64,000 bases of DNA from contig NZ_BKAG01000001.1 of the NCBI RefSeq assembly GCF_007992435.1, positions 62,001 to 126,000 of the forward strand, written 5' to 3'. The translations under genes and the position numbers were made by a program. Of the stretch, positions 5,691 through 27,101 are shown one piece after another. The notes under the pieces are model-generated. The model saw only the letters and a program-made list of their open reading frames with translations, searched no databases and was not told where the DNA came from. The stretch is from Prosthecobacter gellanilyticus (GTDB lineage: Bacteria; Verrucomicrobiota; Verrucomicrobiia; Verrucomicrobiales; Verrucomicrobiaceae). How positions within the stretch are numbered: position 1 is the first letter of the stretch; every line of letters begins with the position of its first letter.

Positions 5691-5863
5691 ATTTGGTAGA
5701 AACATTAAGGGTAGAAAGATTTCAGAAGGGTTTTTGATGGGAGAGACGATGCAACGCAGCCCTCGAGCGCTCCTGAGAATCTCCACTTCTGCCGATCTCA
5801 TCCATCAAAGATCAAAGCCAAAGGTCCCCTAATTTTTCTACCCTTAATCTTTCTACCAAAATT
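5691..5863. repeat. Inverted pair of TTTGGTAGAAA repeat
   Basis: The unit at 5691-5725 (TTTGGTAGAAA then AAGGGTAGAAAGATTT) reappears in the opposite direction at 5833-5863 with only a few mismatches. A third copy, partly collapsed on itself, lies at 16130-16181. The pair fills most of the gap between the ABC ATPase and DUF1501 genes, so the upstream region of the DUF1501 gene contains it. Confidence 0.75.
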
Positions 5864-5886
5864 AGGGCTCATTGCCCCCAACAACC

Positions 5887-6750
5887 TCACTTCTCCGCGA
5901 CTTCAAGGAAGAGCTTCTCCAGCGTCGTGCGCGGATGCCCGGACCTCACCACTTTCGCTCCCTGCCCTTTGCTCTCCACCAGTGCCCGGATCTCCGCCAG
6001 CAACTCCGGTGAGGCATCGGCCAGCACCAGCTCCGTCTCGTTTTCGACCGCGATCAGCTCATCCAGATGCCCCTCACGCACCATCTGGCCATGCGCCATG
6101 ATGCCGATACGATCACACACCTCCTGCATCTGCTCCAGCAAGTGACTCGTGACCAGCACTGTGATGCCCTGCTCTTTAAAACCCAGGATCAAATCACGGA
6201 TCTTCCGTGAGCCTGCGGGGTCCACACCTGCCGTCGGTTCATCCAACACCACAAGCCGCGGCCGATGCAATAGCGCCTGCGCAAGACCCAGGCGCTGCAG
6301 CATGCCCTTCGAGTAACCGGACACGCGTCGATCCGCCGCATCCTCGAGGCCTGTGATGGCCAGCATCTCTTTCGCGCGATCCTTCAACACCGCACCGCTC
6401 ATGCTGCACAAACGGCCATAAAACAGCAGGGTTTCGAAACCATTGAGGTGCTTGTAGAAATACGGGTTCTCCGGCAGGAAGCCCACATCGCGGCGGCTTT
6501 CCACCTCCGTGCTGGACTTGCCAAACACCGTGGTGCGTCCACTCGTCGGTGTGACCAGTCCAAGGATGGCCTTCATCGTCGTGGATTTACCGCAGCCGTT
6601 CGGACCGATGAGGCCATACACCTCGCCATCATTCACCGTGAGCGAGAGATCACGCACCGCCGTGAACGGTGCCTTGCCAAGCCCCGCCTTGAAAACCTTC
6701 GTCAGGTTTTCCACAGTCACAGCAGGCGTTGTCGAGGCGGGGGGCGGCAT
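5887..6750 (-). CDS. ABC transporter ATP-binding protein
   Basis: Nucleotide-binding subunit of an ABC transporter, 287 residues, peripheral to the inner membrane. Walker A is GPNGCGKST at about 52-60, the signature is SGYSKGMLQRL near 144, Walker B with the catalytic Glu is LVVLDEPTAGVDP near 168, and the H-loop His is in TSHLLEQ. It resembles the CcmA/NatA class that pairs with ABC-2 permeases. No permease gene adjoins it in this window, which is unusual for the class. The last 60 residues are a variable regulatory tail. Confidence 0.9.
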   Translation of the reverse strand: MPPPASTTPAVTVENLTKVFKAGLGKAPFTAVRDLSLTVNDGEVYGLIGPNGCGKSTTMKAILGLVTPTSGRTTVFGKSSTEVESRRDVGFLPENPYFYKHLNGFETLLFYGRLCSMSGAVLKDRAKEMLAITGLEDAADRRVSGYSKGMLQRLGLAQALLHRPRLVVLDEPTAGVDPAGSRKIRDLILGFKEQGITVLVTSHLLEQMQEVCDRIGIMAHGQMVREGHLDELIAVENETELVLADASPELLAEIRALVESKGQGAKVVRSGHPRTTLEKLFLEVAEK

Positions 6751-9466: not shown

Positions 9467-10417
9467 TTACTTCAAAGGCACGCTCCACAAGTGCTTGCCG
9501 GAAGTGATGAAAAGGGTCTTGCCATCCTTTCCGCCAAAGGCGCAGTTGCAGCATTCATCCGGGGAGGTGGGGATGAAGTCGATGAGCTTGCCGGAGGGCG
9601 AGAGAATGTAGCAACCGGCCTTGAAGCGCGTGGTCTCGTAGTCGTTCGCGGTGTTCGTGCCAGCCGCGACATAGAGGCGGCCTTCCTTGTCCATCTTCAT
9701 GCCATCAGGGCCGCGGCCGTCTTTCCAGTCGAAGAGAACCTTGCGTGTATCGTAGATCACGCTGCCCTTTTCATCGAGCTCATAGCGCAGCAGTTTGCGG
9801 GAGCCACCGTGGCTGTTGTTATTGTTGTCGGCGATGTAGAGATAGCGGTCATCAGGCGAGATGAGGATGCCGTTCGGACGCTCGGCGCCATAGGTGTTCA
9901 GCATCTGCACCTCACCAGACTTCTCGATGCGATACACACCCTCGATGGCATGCCGGGGCACGCCGGCCTTCATGCTCGGCACCGACCAGATCTCCATGCC
10001 TTCCCTCGGACCATAACGCGGATCGGTGAAGTGGATGCGGCCTTTCGAGTCCATGCAAAGATCGTTAGGCGAGTTGAAGCGCTTACCATTAAAACGATCC
10101 GCCAGCACCGTGACACCTCCATCCTTCTCCGTGCGGGTCACACGACGCAGCCCCGATTCACAAGCCACGAGACGGCCTTCGCGGTCAAACAGCAGGCCGT
10201 TGGAGGCATTGTGCCGGAACACCGTGATACGGCCCTTCGGGTCCATGCGGTTGATATGCTTGCCATCGGTGAAGTAAAGCGAGCCATCCTTCCACGCAGG
10301 CCCCTCCCCTGCCCCGATGAGACCATGGTCCGTCGGCTTCGCCCCGGGAACAATTGGCGACGGCATGGTGGAGCATGAAGCGAGAACGAGCGGGACAAGC
10401 AGCAGGAGGGATTTCAT
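9467..10417 (-). CDS. SMP-30/gluconolactonase-like lipoprotein
   Basis: Six-bladed propeller protein of 316 residues related to SMP-30/gluconolactonase/LRE enzymes, which hydrolyse sugar lactones with a bound divalent metal. The start at 10417 gives a lipoprotein signal with lipobox LASC (MKSLLLLVPLVLASCS), so it should be tethered to a membrane. Typical segments are EGPAWKDGSLYFTDG near 35, SPNDLCMDSKGRIHFTDPRYG near 115, RPNGILISPDDRYLYIAD near 180 and GPDGMKMDKEGRLYVA near 245; the Glu, Asn and Asp metal ligands are in these. It is the first gene of the leftward block. The specific lactone is unknown. Confidence 0.83.
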   Translation of the reverse strand: MKSLLLLVPLVLASCSTMPSPIVPGAKPTDHGLIGAGEGPAWKDGSLYFTDGKHINRMDPKGRITVFRHNASNGLLFDREGRLVACESGLRRVTRTEKDGGVTVLADRFNGKRFNSPNDLCMDSKGRIHFTDPRYGPREGMEIWSVPSMKAGVPRHAIEGVYRIEKSGEVQMLNTYGAERPNGILISPDDRYLYIADNNNNSHGGSRKLLRYELDEKGSVIYDTRKVLFDWKDGRGPDGMKMDKEGRLYVAAGTNTANDYETTRFKAGCYILSPSGKLIDFIPTSPDECCNCAFGGKDGKTLFITSGKHLWSVPLK

Positions 10418-10457: not shown

Positions 10458-10489
10458 CGCGTTCTCTGCCTGATGAAAAGCCTGCTTTT
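10458..10489. repeat. Left copy of 32-bp direct repeat
   Basis: Thirty-two bases identical to 13062-13093. The right copy spans the start of the PQQ-propeller gene at 13077; this left copy therefore contains a stub of that gene's first codons (ATG at 10473) that quickly runs into a stop. It ends two bases before the stop codon of the intervening 800-residue gene, as expected for a duplication made by insertion. Confidence 0.9.
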
Positions 10490-10491
10490 CC

Positions 10492-12894
10492 TCACTCGGT
10501 CTTCTGCCGTTCTGTCTCGGCAATGATTCGGCCGATCAGCCAATGGCGGCCGGTTGTCCAACCAAGGAGCAAGTGAGAGTCTGGCGGCGACTCCGGACAC
10601 TGGCCTTTCATGGCACGCTGCAGTCCAGCAATCAGGGGCTGGAGCACCTCTTGCAGGCTATTTGGCTCAAACGACAAAAATAGCCCTGCGCGGTAAAGAA
10701 ACTCCCGCTGCGCATTCTGAGTCAGCCCGGACAAGAAATAGATCATCTGGCGCCAGGCGTAGGCGGCGTTTTTGACCATGATCAGGCGCGCATGGTGATT
10801 GCCGCTCCTTTGCCTCAGCCGCCGGATGATCCAGAGCCAGCAACGAATGGCCGCTGCTTCGCGATCAACAGGCAGGTTCAGTGTCTCTATCAACACAGAG
10901 AGGTTTTGGGTGGTGAGGATCTGTTGTTGCTCGATCACCATGCCATTGGCCGCGGGATGTCCGGCCTTGGAGTTGTCGATCTTCGCACGCTTCCAGCAAA
11001 GCTGGCTGAATGGATCTTGTGACGTTCCCATGGCGAGATTCCACCACGAGCGTCGCGCTGTCTCAGGGCTCGGAACTTCCATGGCGAGGACATTGTCGAA
11101 ATCAGCATTGTAGTAGAAATGATACAGCGTGCCCTGCAGCTCGCCTGCCGCAGCTTTGGCCGCGTGAAGAAACTTGGGCCCGAACTCGCCCATGAAGATG
11201 TCGCTGGCAATTTCCTCGACCAGAGGCAGATCCAGTCCAGCCTGCCTGGCAAGGCCACTGAATTCTCGAACAAGGCGATTGGGGAGAATCGCCTGCGGAA
11301 AGGCTGTCAGGGCCGTGGACGCAATATCCCTCAAGGCAGAGACGGCAGCCTGACGTGTGTCTTCAGTCTTGGACCGCCACGGTTCAATCACGGCCACCCA
11401 AGGAAGTTCTTCGATGCGGATCTGGCTTTCCAGATTGAGCAGCAGCAACGAGCGTCTCTTGCGAAAGGCACGATACACATCTGCCTGCACGCGGCGCAAC
11501 GCGTCATCCTTGATCTCCGCGGCATGGATCTCAGCAGTCACTTTCGGAAGCACCAAGGCCAGAGAATCTCCAGACGTGAGCACACGTTTAGACACAAGAT
11601 TGTCGAGGGTGTCACACCGAGCACGCCCCACTTTCCAGACAATGGATTCCGGAAGAGAGCTGCCCTGGACAACATCAGGAAGCTCTTCCGGAGTTACTGG
11701 TGCCATCAACGATGAAGTGTCGGTGAGGCCTGCATCTTGGGGGAAGTCTGCCAACCTGCGAGCGATCACTTTGGCCAGATCAGAATGAAGCGACAGTGCC
11801 ACTGACTGGGCTTGTTCTCGACGTAGCCGCAAACGCTGTGCGGAGCCTGGCTGGCCATGCTTGGCCAGATAGCGCGCCACGATCAGGCGTATGAGACCAA
11901 GCTCACGTCTTGGAAGGTTGCCGATGTCGGGAAGGGCACGACGCAGCAGTTCACGGAGTTGGTAGAAGTTGTCGTCACGTCTGTCCGGCTTGGCACATTT
12001 TTGATGCGCTCGGCGAAGAACTTCATAGTCCTCCAACAACTCAGATACCCTGGTTTCCCAACGCTGTGGAATGGACTGGAGCGGCCAGCCTCCGACCACA
12101 GGAAAACGGCCGTCAGCATTCACGGGCACCGGAAGACCATCACCACCCCTGGCCAGGTCAGGTGCCTCACCTTGAACCGTTTCTAAGACCAGGCCTACCA
12201 AACGATCCATCATGGGAATCCAGACAGTGATCATCTCACGCTGCACCATGTATCCTTTATGCTCGCTCATCCCATTGAGCGCGGTCACCAGCTCACCAGT
12301 CGTCTGGACTGAGACCTCCGCGCTTGAGCTTCGCGCCTTGTCCGAAGGGACAGGATAGAATCTCAACCGGTCAAAGAAAGGCGAGATCTCATGGAGCACC
12401 TTGGCGGCTGCATCAGGCTGGTCCTGCTGCATCAACCAAACGACCACAAGCAGGGCGCCCTCTTCCGGCACTGTGATTTCATAGCGGCCATTCCACAGCC
12501 ACTCCGAGAGCATGGTCAGGCCATGAACGCTCAAGAAGAACTCGTTGATGATCGCCCGTCCGCTGTCTGGAGCCAGTTCCAGGGCTTTGAGAATGGCCTG
12601 CTCATGTTCGAGCATCGGACCTCCGGCCAGCAGGTTTCCGGTGACAAATCCTCCGGTGACAACTTCCGGAGTCGCCCACACTGGCACGCCCTTCGCAGGC
12701 TGGCGTGATCCCACCTCAAACGCACCTGCGGCCATGCCCTGAAGCACTGCCCGCCACTGCCCAGCCTTGGCCATGGCACGCTCACGAACGGCCAGATCAG
12801 CGTGACTCTCCACAGCCTTCAGCGCCTTGCCCAACTGACCTGCCGCATAACCAGAATTTGCCTGCATCGTGGAAATGGATGGAACTGAACTCAT
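10492..12894 (-). CDS. Uncharacterised 800-residue protein between direct repeats
   Basis: I do not recognise a named domain. The protein is about 800 residues, largely alpha-helical by composition, without a signal peptide or a convincing membrane span, so probably cytosolic. Notable stretches are WLMQQDQPDAAAKVLHEI near 150, a long charged helical middle, and a C-terminal part with GMVIEQQQILTTQNLSVL near 655 and KNAAYAWRQMIYFLSGL near 715, the latter reading like the best-conserved core. The start at 12894 is a choice: an in-frame codon at 13017 would extend it by 41 less protein-like residues. No Shine-Dalgarno is evident. The gene fills the space between two identical 32-bp repeats, pointing to horizontal acquisition. 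Confidence 0.7.
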   Translation of the reverse strand: MSSVPSISTMQANSGYAAGQLGKALKAVESHADLAVRERAMAKAGQWRAVLQGMAAGAFEVGSRQPAKGVPVWATPEVVTGGFVTGNLLAGGPMLEHEQAILKALELAPDSGRAIINEFFLSVHGLTMLSEWLWNGRYEITVPEEGALLVVVWLMQQDQPDAAAKVLHEISPFFDRLRFYPVPSDKARSSSAEVSVQTTGELVTALNGMSEHKGYMVQREMITVWIPMMDRLVGLVLETVQGEAPDLARGGDGLPVPVNADGRFPVVGGWPLQSIPQRWETRVSELLEDYEVLRRAHQKCAKPDRRDDNFYQLRELLRRALPDIGNLPRRELGLIRLIVARYLAKHGQPGSAQRLRLRREQAQSVALSLHSDLAKVIARRLADFPQDAGLTDTSSLMAPVTPEELPDVVQGSSLPESIVWKVGRARCDTLDNLVSKRVLTSGDSLALVLPKVTAEIHAAEIKDDALRRVQADVYRAFRKRRSLLLLNLESQIRIEELPWVAVIEPWRSKTEDTRQAAVSALRDIASTALTAFPQAILPNRLVREFSGLARQAGLDLPLVEEIASDIFMGEFGPKFLHAAKAAAGELQGTLYHFYYNADFDNVLAMEVPSPETARRSWWNLAMGTSQDPFSQLCWKRAKIDNSKAGHPAANGMVIEQQQILTTQNLSVLIETLNLPVDREAAAIRCWLWIIRRLRQRSGNHHARLIMVKNAAYAWRQMIYFLSGLTQNAQREFLYRAGLFLSFEPNSLQEVLQPLIAGLQRAMKGQCPESPPDSHLLLGWTTGRHWLIGRIIAETERQKTE

Positions 12895-13061
12895 GAAGAA
12901 GAGGATCCAGGGGCTGGAGTTGAACCAGCTCCCTCCCGGTCCTGAGCCGAGCGCTCTCACGTTGAGCTTCCCTGGAGTGATGAAATTTCGCTGAGAACTG
13001 TGGCTGCGGTGCCACACTTCGCAAGTCTACATACGAGCGATGCATGGATCTCCATGTCTGA

Positions 13062-13093
13062 CGCGTTCTCTGCCTGATGAAAAGCCTGCTTTT
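13062..13093. repeat. Right copy of 32-bp direct repeat
   Basis: Identical to 10458-10489 in the same orientation. It covers 15 bases upstream of the PQQ-propeller ATG (13077) and its first codons. The two copies enclose 2,572 bases that hold only the 800-residue gene and its flanks. Confidence 0.9.
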
Positions 13094-14483
13094 TCCTGCT
13101 CTGCTTTTGAGCTCCACCTGCCTCGCGGATTCCAACTGGCCGCAGTTTCGCGGGGACGGCGGGCTCGGGCTTGGATCGGGCAAACCGCCCGTGGAGTTTT
13201 CAGCGGAGAAGAATCTGAAGTGGAAGGTGGAGGTGCCGCTGGGACATTCATCGCCCTGCATCTGGGGAGACAAGGTCGCGCTCACAGGCCTGGATGGCGG
13301 CAAGCTGGTGACCTTTTGCCTGAGCCGCACGGATGGCCATGAGCTATGGCGCGTGGCCGTTCCAACAGAGAAGATCGAGAACGCGCACCGCATCGGCAGT
13401 CCGGCAGCGCCGACCTGCTGCACGGATGGCGAGCGTGTGATCTCCTACTTCGGCTCTTATGGCGTGCTGGCTTATGATTGGAGTGGCAAGGAGCTGTGGA
13501 AGAAGCCGCTGCCTGCTCCGGTGGTGGAGTTTGGAACGAGTGCTTCGCCCGTCATCGCGGATGGAAAAGTGATCATCGTGGCGGACCAGGACATCGGCAG
13601 TTACATGATCGCGCTGGATGTGAAGACGGGCGCGGAAGTGTGGAAGGTGGATCGCACCGAGTTCAGGCGCGGCTTCTCCTCGCCCTTCATCTGGAAGCAT
13701 GATGGCATCGAAGAGCTCATCGTCTGCGGCTCGCTGTGGACACGCAGTTATGATCTGAAGGATGGCAAGCAGCGCTGGAGCGTGCGTGGCATGGCGCGTG
13801 TCTCCAATGCCAGCCCGATCGCCGCGGATGGCGTGCTGCTTTTGGTAAGCTGGAATGTCGGCGGTGATGAAGATGACCGCGTGCTCATGGAGCCGCATGA
13901 TGTCTTCCTGGCCGCGAACGATGCCGACAAGGATGGCCTGCTGACGCTGGAGGAGTTCCCCAAGAGCAAAATCAAAGATCGTTATTCTCAGATCGATGCG
14001 AACAAGGACGGCAAAGTGACCAAAGAGGAGTATGAAGTGCTGCGCGGCATGTTTGCAGACGCCGTGAACCAGCTCTTTGCCATCAAACCCGGCGGCAGCG
14101 GTGACATCACAGACACGCATGTCGTCTGGCAGCAGAGCAAGCACCTGCCGTATGTGTCATCGCCCGTCGTGGCGAACGGTCGTGTCTTCACCATGAAGAG
14201 CGGCGGCCTCGCCAGCGCCTACGATGCCCAAAACGGCAGCCCCATTTATCAGGCGGAGCGCGTGGATGCCTCCGGTGACTACTATGCCTCCGCCGTGACC
14301 GCCGATGGCCGGATCTATCTCGTCTCCCAACGCGGCACCGTGGTGGTGCTGGATGCCAAGAGCGAGACGCTGAACGTCCTCGCCCGCAATGAGCTCAAAG
14401 CCCCGGTGTTTGCCTCACCGGCGATTCTTGATGGCGTGATCTACGTCCGCACAGACAAGCACTTGATGGCGTTTGGGATGTGA
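13077..14483 (+). CDS. Secreted PQQ-like beta-propeller protein with EF-hand pair
   Basis: Exported protein of 468 residues with signal peptide MKSLLFPALLLSSTCLA. The mature N terminus WPQFRGDGG is the hallmark of the planctomycete-type PQQ-binding-like propeller. Blades are seen as repeated GxxLxAYDxxxGxxxW-like units, for example VLAYDWSGKELWKKPL and YDLKDGKQRWSVRG. Between blades, around residues 281-325, are two calcium-binding loops, DADKDGLLTLEE and DANKDGKVTKEE, a full EF-hand pair. The enzymatic role, if any, is unknown; it may be a periplasmic scaffold or dehydrogenase-like protein. The promoter region was probably altered by the insertion next door. Confidence 0.83.
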   Translation: MKSLLFPALLLSSTCLADSNWPQFRGDGGLGLGSGKPPVEFSAEKNLKWKVEVPLGHSSPCIWGDKVALTGLDGGKLVTFCLSRTDGHELWRVAVPTEKIENAHRIGSPAAPTCCTDGERVISYFGSYGVLAYDWSGKELWKKPLPAPVVEFGTSASPVIADGKVIIVADQDIGSYMIALDVKTGAEVWKVDRTEFRRGFSSPFIWKHDGIEELIVCGSLWTRSYDLKDGKQRWSVRGMARVSNASPIAADGVLLLVSWNVGGDEDDRVLMEPHDVFLAANDADKDGLLTLEEFPKSKIKDRYSQIDANKDGKVTKEEYEVLRGMFADAVNQLFAIKPGGSGDITDTHVVWQQSKHLPYVSSPVVANGRVFTMKSGGLASAYDAQNGSPIYQAERVDASGDYYASAVTADGRIYLVSQRGTVVVLDAKSETLNVLARNELKAPVFASPAILDGVIYVRTDKHLMAFGM

Positions 14484-26792: not shown

Positions 26793-27101
26793 CCCTGCAC
26801 GCCCCCAACGTACCACCCCATTCCAATGGGGTGGCACCTCGAAAACCTAACAAGAAAGAAGATAAATAAGAACCCCGCTCACCAAAATCCTTTCCGTCCT
26901 TCTCTCCACACCACACATTCCCCCCTCTCCCACACCCGAAACCCAAAGGGCTTCCGTCTTACAGCCCAGGGGTGCCGAGCTTTAGCGAGTGCTCCCCTGG
27001 GTTATCGACACGGCATTCTCCTTTCATGCCGAACCCCAAAGGGGTTCCGTCCTTTTCCGTGAACGTCGGCACCCACCGCCAATCCACCCCACCACCCGGT
27101 G
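26793..27101. other. Intergenic region packed with palindromes
   Basis: About 309 bases between convergent genes. They contain the CCACCCCATT/AATGGGGTGG palindrome (26813-26834), a stem of CCCAGGGG (26965-26972) with CCCCTGGG (26994-27001), and GAACCCC-AAA-GGGGTTC at 27031-27047. No gene is seen. These hairpins may terminate transcription from both sides. Confidence 0.7.
26813..26834. repeat. CCCCATT-CC-AATGGGG palindrome, copy 2
   Basis: Ten-bp arms CCACCCCATT and AATGGGGTGG around CC. Identical over its full length to 32168-32189. Confidence 0.88.

Follow-up and report, generated by a model that had tools for sequence, protein, structure and literature searches.

A tRNA-like RNA gene linked to a helical protein of no known family: an apparently undescribed RNA-protein cassette of Prosthecobacter gellanilyticus and other bacteria

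Threonyl-tRNA synthetase regulates itself through its operator, and the thrS operator, a tRNA mimic located in the mRNA leader near the start codon, imitates only part of a tRNA and not the full cloverleaf. Allo-tRNAs, encoded by unusual bacterial tRNA genes with odd anticodons, were reportedly described by Mukai et al. in 2017 as having novel cloverleafs with 8/4 or 9/3 acceptor/T stems. Burroughs and Aravind are said to have reported, in 2016, a Band-7-associated "tRNA-like molecule" in RtcB RNA-repair systems. In the rsr-yrlA-rtcBA or Ro-Y RNA operons, the gene of an RNA-binding protein adjoins that of a tRNA-like RNA in a context of tRNA damage, and YrlA has a tRNA-like domain (PMC7790460). 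Type III toxin-antitoxin (TA) systems (ToxIN, CptIN and TenpIN) are compact and mobile, occur on plasmids and chromosomes, and carry an RNA gene directly 5' of a protein gene; their antitoxin consists of pseudoknot repeats followed by a terminator, and their toxin is a small endoRNase (PMC5086642).

A locus of Prosthecobacter gellanilyticus resembles each of these systems in part. It lies in the window (the whole 64-kb stretch of DNA that was analysed) and comprises a gene for a tRNA-like RNA and, after it on the same strand, the gene of a protein, X (Table 1). The preliminary description of this DNA had reported two exact 32-bp direct repeats, the right one at the start of the PQQ-propeller gene and the left one a stub of that start, with a single 800-residue gene between them whose stop falls two bases past the left repeat. 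The repeats, both assignments, the length of the protein (starting from the ATG at 12894) and the position of its stop codon (10492-10494) were all reproduced. The gene is not alone between the repeats, since the tRNA-like RNA gene is also there; hence, the unit gained is not a lone gene, as had been thought, but the tRNA-like RNA plus X.

Table 1. Features of the cassette and of its flanks in the window
Feature	Position	Strand	Remark
SMP-30/gluconolactonase-like gene, flanking, host	9467..10417	-	
Left 32-bp direct repeat (stub of the PQQ gene start)	10458..10489	+	2 bp beyond the X stop
Inserted cassette (inferred): 85-bp leader, tRNA-like, 10-nt spacer, gene X and 2 bp	10490..13061	-	Flanking repeats; geometry as in G011 and Demequina L037
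Gene X, coding for an all-alpha protein (800 aa) of no known family	10492..12894	-	
Spacer between tRNA-like and start codon, 10 nt, pyrimidine-rich, no Shine-Dalgarno	12895..12904	-	
tRNA-like RNA gene, 7/5 cloverleaf, anticodon loop CUCAGGA, U1-A72, U73	12905..12976	-	
85-bp region 5' of the tRNA-like, within the repeats; presumed promoter	12977..13061	-	
Right 32-bp direct repeat (overlaps the PQQ gene start)	13062..13093	+	
PQQ/EF-hand beta-propeller gene, flanking, host	13077..14483	+	ATG 13077

Both copies of the 32-mer (CGCGTTCTCTGCCTGATGAAAAGCCTGCTTTT) are 100% identical. They form the longest exact direct repeat in the window and, allowing up to three mismatches, they are the only two copies in the 7.6-Mb genome; in consequence, the pair is neither a dispersed repeat nor a product of chance, and the preliminary description's own worry about a general repeat at many loci can be set aside. 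The second-longest exact direct repeat in the window measures 26 bp (at 26809 and 32164, 5.4 kb apart). The third-position GC content of X is 0.632, versus 0.715-0.831 in nine neighbouring genes, and X is present in 3 of the 48 genomes of the genus, which conserves neither the pairing of SMP-30 and PQQ nor the region 5' of the PQQ gene. The 85 bp upstream of the tRNA-like have no detectable similarity to the region upstream of two other cassettes (L006 and L007), and the 5' end of the unit is therefore placed from the repeats alone.

Acquisition by insertion with duplication of the target, already suggested in the preliminary description, is supported by the patchy presence of X in the genus, by its deviant base composition and by two further loci. 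Firstly, in genome G011 (locus L007), the cassette is flanked by a duplicated 3' end of a PQQ-like gene (65-69 bp, approximately 92% identical), while in the relative G013 (L104) the PQQ-like gene runs directly into the upstream flank of the G011 cassette (90% identity over 502 bp), thus providing an empty site. Secondly, in Demequina (L037), the 3' end of the upstream gene is repeated after X (102 bp, approximately 82%), which would be an older case. The exact repeat in the window fits the youngest insertion of the three. The geometry is alike in the three cases: roughly 55-90 bp separate the end of the left copy from the tRNA-like, and 3-33 bp lie between the stop codon of X and the start of the right copy. 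Such a flanking repeat was not found at the approximately 35 other loci, as would be expected of old insertions.

Regarding the manner of insertion, the lengths of the duplications (32, ~65 and ~102 bp) and the presence of one copy of X per genome in every genome searched make the cassette unlike an ordinary transposon; long inverted end repeats are also absent. At three independent loci, the duplicated target directly borders a unit reduced to leader, tRNA-like and X, and X could accordingly be imagined as the protein that mobilises a small transposable element, one which contains an RNA and leaves target duplications of long and variable length. Nevertheless, the single copies, the absence of terminal repeats, the uneven duplications and the lack of any recombinase or nuclease family or fold match for X make this explanation very improbable. 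An integrative element with a tRNA attachment site was also considered and rejected: there is no integrase between the repeats, which enclose only the tRNA-like and X, and the duplicated bases derive from a protein gene, not from the tRNA-like. Capture of the cassette at staggered breaks is one possibility.

The tRNA-like of the window matches the Rfam tRNA model RF00005 with 54.7 bits (gathering threshold 29; E 5e-10), is not called by ARAGORN and has a D loop without GG. In an alignment of 30 sequences, the RNA forms a covarying cloverleaf with stems of 7/4/5/5 pairs, as in canonical tRNAs: 98.6% of the stem cells are paired, 13 of the 21 stem pairs have double-sided changes, and the covariation score is 0.455 versus 0.174 for shuffled and at most 0.113 for slid alignments. 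The folding energies of single tRNA-likes are only mildly better than those of shuffled sequences (z from -1.5 to -2.0) and, hence, the structural case rests on covariation. The acceptor stem is kept and the T stem is nearly invariant; most sequences begin the acceptor stem with a U-A pair and have a pyrimidine after this stem, at position 73; and the 3' CC is kept in most sequences (CCA in about a third). These 7/5 stems set the X-linked RNAs apart from the allo-tRNAs. Among the host tRNAs that were compared, the best agrees with the tRNA-like at 49 of 72 positions, so that a tandem copy of any of them is ruled out. The genome of the window (G000) also contains a dense array of low-scoring tRNA genes (C4:35353-37938; 43-61 bits), reminiscent of phage-type tRNA arrays, and, some 4 kb from it, a split or divergent gene for an RtcB-family RNA ligase (C4:41955-43067).

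In the anticodon loop, C32 (29/30), U33 (29/30) and A38 (27/30) are kept, and positions 34-37 are the most variable stretch. The loop has 6 nt in 8 of the 30 sequences and 5 nt in a planctomycete (L035), the lengths in host tRNAs having been measured crudely, because type II arms confuse the measurement, and with no formal host control. Position 37 is a pyrimidine in 6 of the 22 seven-base loops. In canonical decoding tRNAs, the loop has 7 nt, position 37 is a purine and each body type goes with one anticodon; here, many anticodon triplets sit on similar bodies, and tRNA finders distribute these genes over ordinary or undetermined tRNAs (Pro, Ser, Arg, SeC, Pyl and "???"). Owing to this hypervariable anticodon and to the loops of 5-6 nt, the RNA is apparently a tRNA mimic instead of a usual decoding tRNA. 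A charged, decoding or missense-suppressor tRNA that came together with X would account for the conservation of U33 and most loop bases, and for the many loops that resemble real anticodon loops. It would not account for the short loops, the pyrimidine at 37, the U1-A72 pair with a pyrimidine at 73 or the presence of every kind of anticodon on one body type, and it is extremely improbable.

The body of the RNA and the protein have diverged together: the distance between tRNA-like bodies tracks that between X proteins (Mantel r 0.68, p 2e-4), while the correlation of X distance with anticodon-loop distance is -0.05. The former value shows co-inheritance and is not proof of contact, and the latter shows an evolution of the loop that is independent of X. 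Part of the anticodon variability could be neutral.

Linkage between both components is nearly constant. A tRNA or tRNA-like lies directly 5' of X on the same strand at 33 of the 35 GTDB loci with upstream sequence, as it does in the window, in genomes G262/G498 and G460, and at three plasmid loci. Two planctomycete loci (L012 and L022) have X with no detectable tRNA-like upstream; there, the RNA has either been lost or diverged beyond the Rfam model, and these loci speak against a module. The start codon is found 10-33 nt past the 3' end of the tRNA-like at 28 of the 30 measured loci (median, 19.5 nt; outlier, 140 nt at L020), and a Shine-Dalgarno-like motif at about 3 of the 30. Two tandem tRNA-likes precede X at L008, L029, L031 and L134; in L031, they occupy 5800-5872 and 5890-5958, and ARAGORN calls the second one tRNA-Sec (anticodon tca).

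The preliminary description had also proposed to list the neighbours of the homologues: this revealed the recurrence of the tRNA-like and, except among close relatives, no recurrent neighbouring protein family. As the tRNA-like is constant and no other neighbour recurs, the unit is taken to be the RNA plus X, and that they constitute a linked RNA-protein module is very probable. Most of the other neighbours have metabolic functions, and a few encode transposases or recombinases. In a plasmid of Streptomyces yangpuensis (L132), the cassette lies near IS982 and IS21 transposase genes. In three Achromobacter species (L023, L025 and L039), the same genes are found upstream of the cassette and a TATACT box stands just 5' of the tRNA-like; a consensus promoter search 5' of the tRNA-like yielded no clear enrichment of -10 boxes.

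Presumably, a single transcript would begin, or nearly begin, with the 72-nt tRNA mimic and, in the window, continue with the message of X 10 nt further on. Two other explanations start from this arrangement. The first one is that of a cis-regulatory leader: X would be a tRNA-acting enzyme that regulates itself through a tRNA mimic in its own mRNA, as in the thrS case. The near-constant distance to the start codon and the scarcity of Shine-Dalgarno motifs agree with it. However, the X cassette keeps the full cloverleaf, with its acceptor stem, near-invariant T stem and mostly a 3' CC, which goes beyond the needs of an operator, and neither the variability of the anticodon nor the two copies at some loci are explained; a leader with no other function is unlikely.

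The second one is a type III-like TA system in which the tRNA-like would be the RNA antitoxin of X. The layout of the 33 loci (RNA gene upstream, same strand) is that of type III systems, this being a likeness in layout alone, and plasmid carriage, patchy spread, tandem tRNA-likes and the co-divergence of body and X are also in line with it. In contrast, there is no hairpin or evident Rho-independent terminator in the 10-nt gap of the window, whereas type III systems have one between the repeats and the toxin (PMC5086642); the RNA is a full tRNA mimic; an antitoxin has no need of a hypervariable anticodon; and X, an all-helical protein of 800 aa, does not appear to be ToxN-like. With regard to the ToxN/AbiQ fold, Pfam and PADLOC gave no match for X and the fold searches none of significance, and a missing match excludes nothing. 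On balance, a type III-like system is rather unlikely.

As for X itself, the profile and structure searches envisaged in the preliminary description delivered a confident helical model and neither a family nor a fold. No match was found in Pfam, NCBIfam, PADLOC, PHROGs or PDB sequences with the single protein or with a profile. The AlphaFold2 model is all-helical (mean pLDDT, 87.8; 90.3 for the C-terminal 315 residues modelled alone). Foldseek gave no significant match (best E, 0.4 in PDB and 0.12 in BFVD; 2.2 in PDB for the C-terminal part), and the best VIA hits (Z 5.7 and 4.0) were common helical arrangements. As modelled, X is thus without a fold match, and this lack of a match does not prove the fold to be new. 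Conservation is highest at G62-G86 (GSR.P, WAT.EVVTGGF.TG), a stretch within the part of the model that has the lowest confidence; it might be a loop that becomes ordered upon binding. Among 31 diverse members, 40 columns are invariant, with R, E, D, N, Y or W in many of them, which would be consistent with an enzymatic or RNA-binding surface.

X was found at 36 loci of GTDB species by a profile scan of approximately 85,000 species genomes, a lower bound because the scan used two peptide patterns. They belong to at least seven phyla: Verrucomicrobiota, Planctomycetota, Acidobacteriota, Pseudomonadota, Myxococcota, Chloroflexota and Actinomycetota. Furthermore, six plasmids of Streptomyces, Embleya and Curtobacterium encode X. 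No copy was found on phage records or in 2.9 million viral contigs. The X tree mixes phyla: its starred branches force at least three label changes each for Pseudomonadota and Planctomycetota, and Mitsuaria pairs with a myxococcal sequence with support 100/100. This mixing is most simply read as horizontal transfer. In the planctomycete MAG OFTM341 (L035:5610-8041), X is split by a frame change, either a real decay or an assembly error.

Two planctomycete neighbourhoods hint at RNA repair. Pnkp/Hen1 complexes repair tRNAs cleaved by ribotoxins and methylate the junction (PMC4411300). At the planctomycete locus L035, Hen1, a Metallophos-PNKP_ligase protein (Pnkp-like), the tRNA-like and X follow each other on one strand; at L008, Hen1, a DUF5677 gene and two RlaP-family genes are divergent from two tRNA-likes and X. 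Such neighbours occur at only 2 of about 30 loci, Hen1 and Pnkp together at L035 only, unlike a Pnkp/Hen1 system, which encodes both with the module. Since Hen1 is present in just 6 of 30 X genomes, the neighbourhood is a hint and not a rule. An apparent proximity of RtcB and X in Variovorax was discarded, as coordinates and strand did not fit the locus and there was no RtcB among the scanned neighbours. A defence role, put forward in the preliminary description, is possible; the PADLOC matches among 115 neighbours were few and generic, with no defence-island context.

Returning to the RNA-protein module, the following mechanism may be proposed: (i) the tRNA mimic would probably be freed from the transcript by tRNA-processing enzymes; (ii) X would bind it through the conserved body; (iii) the anticodon loop, which varies regardless of X, would be displayed to something outside the module; and (iv) the likeliest role would be that of a sensor or decoy for attackers of the anticodon loop, such as toxins or the anticodon nucleases of phages or hosts, and X would be the responder. 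Changes in the anticodon loop of phage tRNAs have been proposed as an escape from anticodon nucleases (PMC10264068). The rarity of RNA-repair neighbours, the ordinary nature of the others and the absence of copies in phages and viral contigs count against a sensor or decoy, and this role is put forward tentatively. We give the whole statement, that is, a horizontally mobile two-part RNA-protein module with a sensor or decoy tRNA mimic, a probability of roughly 0.42.

When compared with the described systems, neither the RNA nor the protein has all the tested defining features of any known family considered. The cassette shares the adjacency of protein and RNA genes with the Ro-Y RNA operons, but there is no RtcB among the neighbours scanned, a complete cloverleaf stands just 5' of the protein gene, and the TROVE domain had no Pfam match in 31 X members and none in the fold searches. 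The system attributed to Burroughs and Aravind is reportedly similar in that a bacterial tRNA-like ncRNA is linked to accessory RNA-repair genes; here, in contrast, the partner is X, and one flotillin gene and no RtcB appear among the neighbours scanned. It is the closest conceptual precedent, and no description of a system of tRNA-like plus X was found in databases or open-access papers. In sum, the cassette looks like an undescribed RNA-protein system. It is conceivable, though doubtful, that it represents a new class of mobile bacterial RNA-protein systems in which a tRNA mimic whose anticodon loop diversifies serves as exchangeable bait (or guide), and a large protein with a new fold recognises the tRNA body only.

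Because of this scatter in the output of tRNA finders, many copies have probably been labelled as odd tRNAs next to hypothetical proteins. The three Achromobacter cassettes offer a good system for presence/absence work. In any case, at least seven phyla share the link of one protein family to a tRNA mimic whose body is conserved and whose anticodon varies freely; the logic implied would be that X reads the body and something else reads the anticodon. If this is true, the cassette would be a compact addition to the modules through which cells, toxins and phages contest tRNAs.
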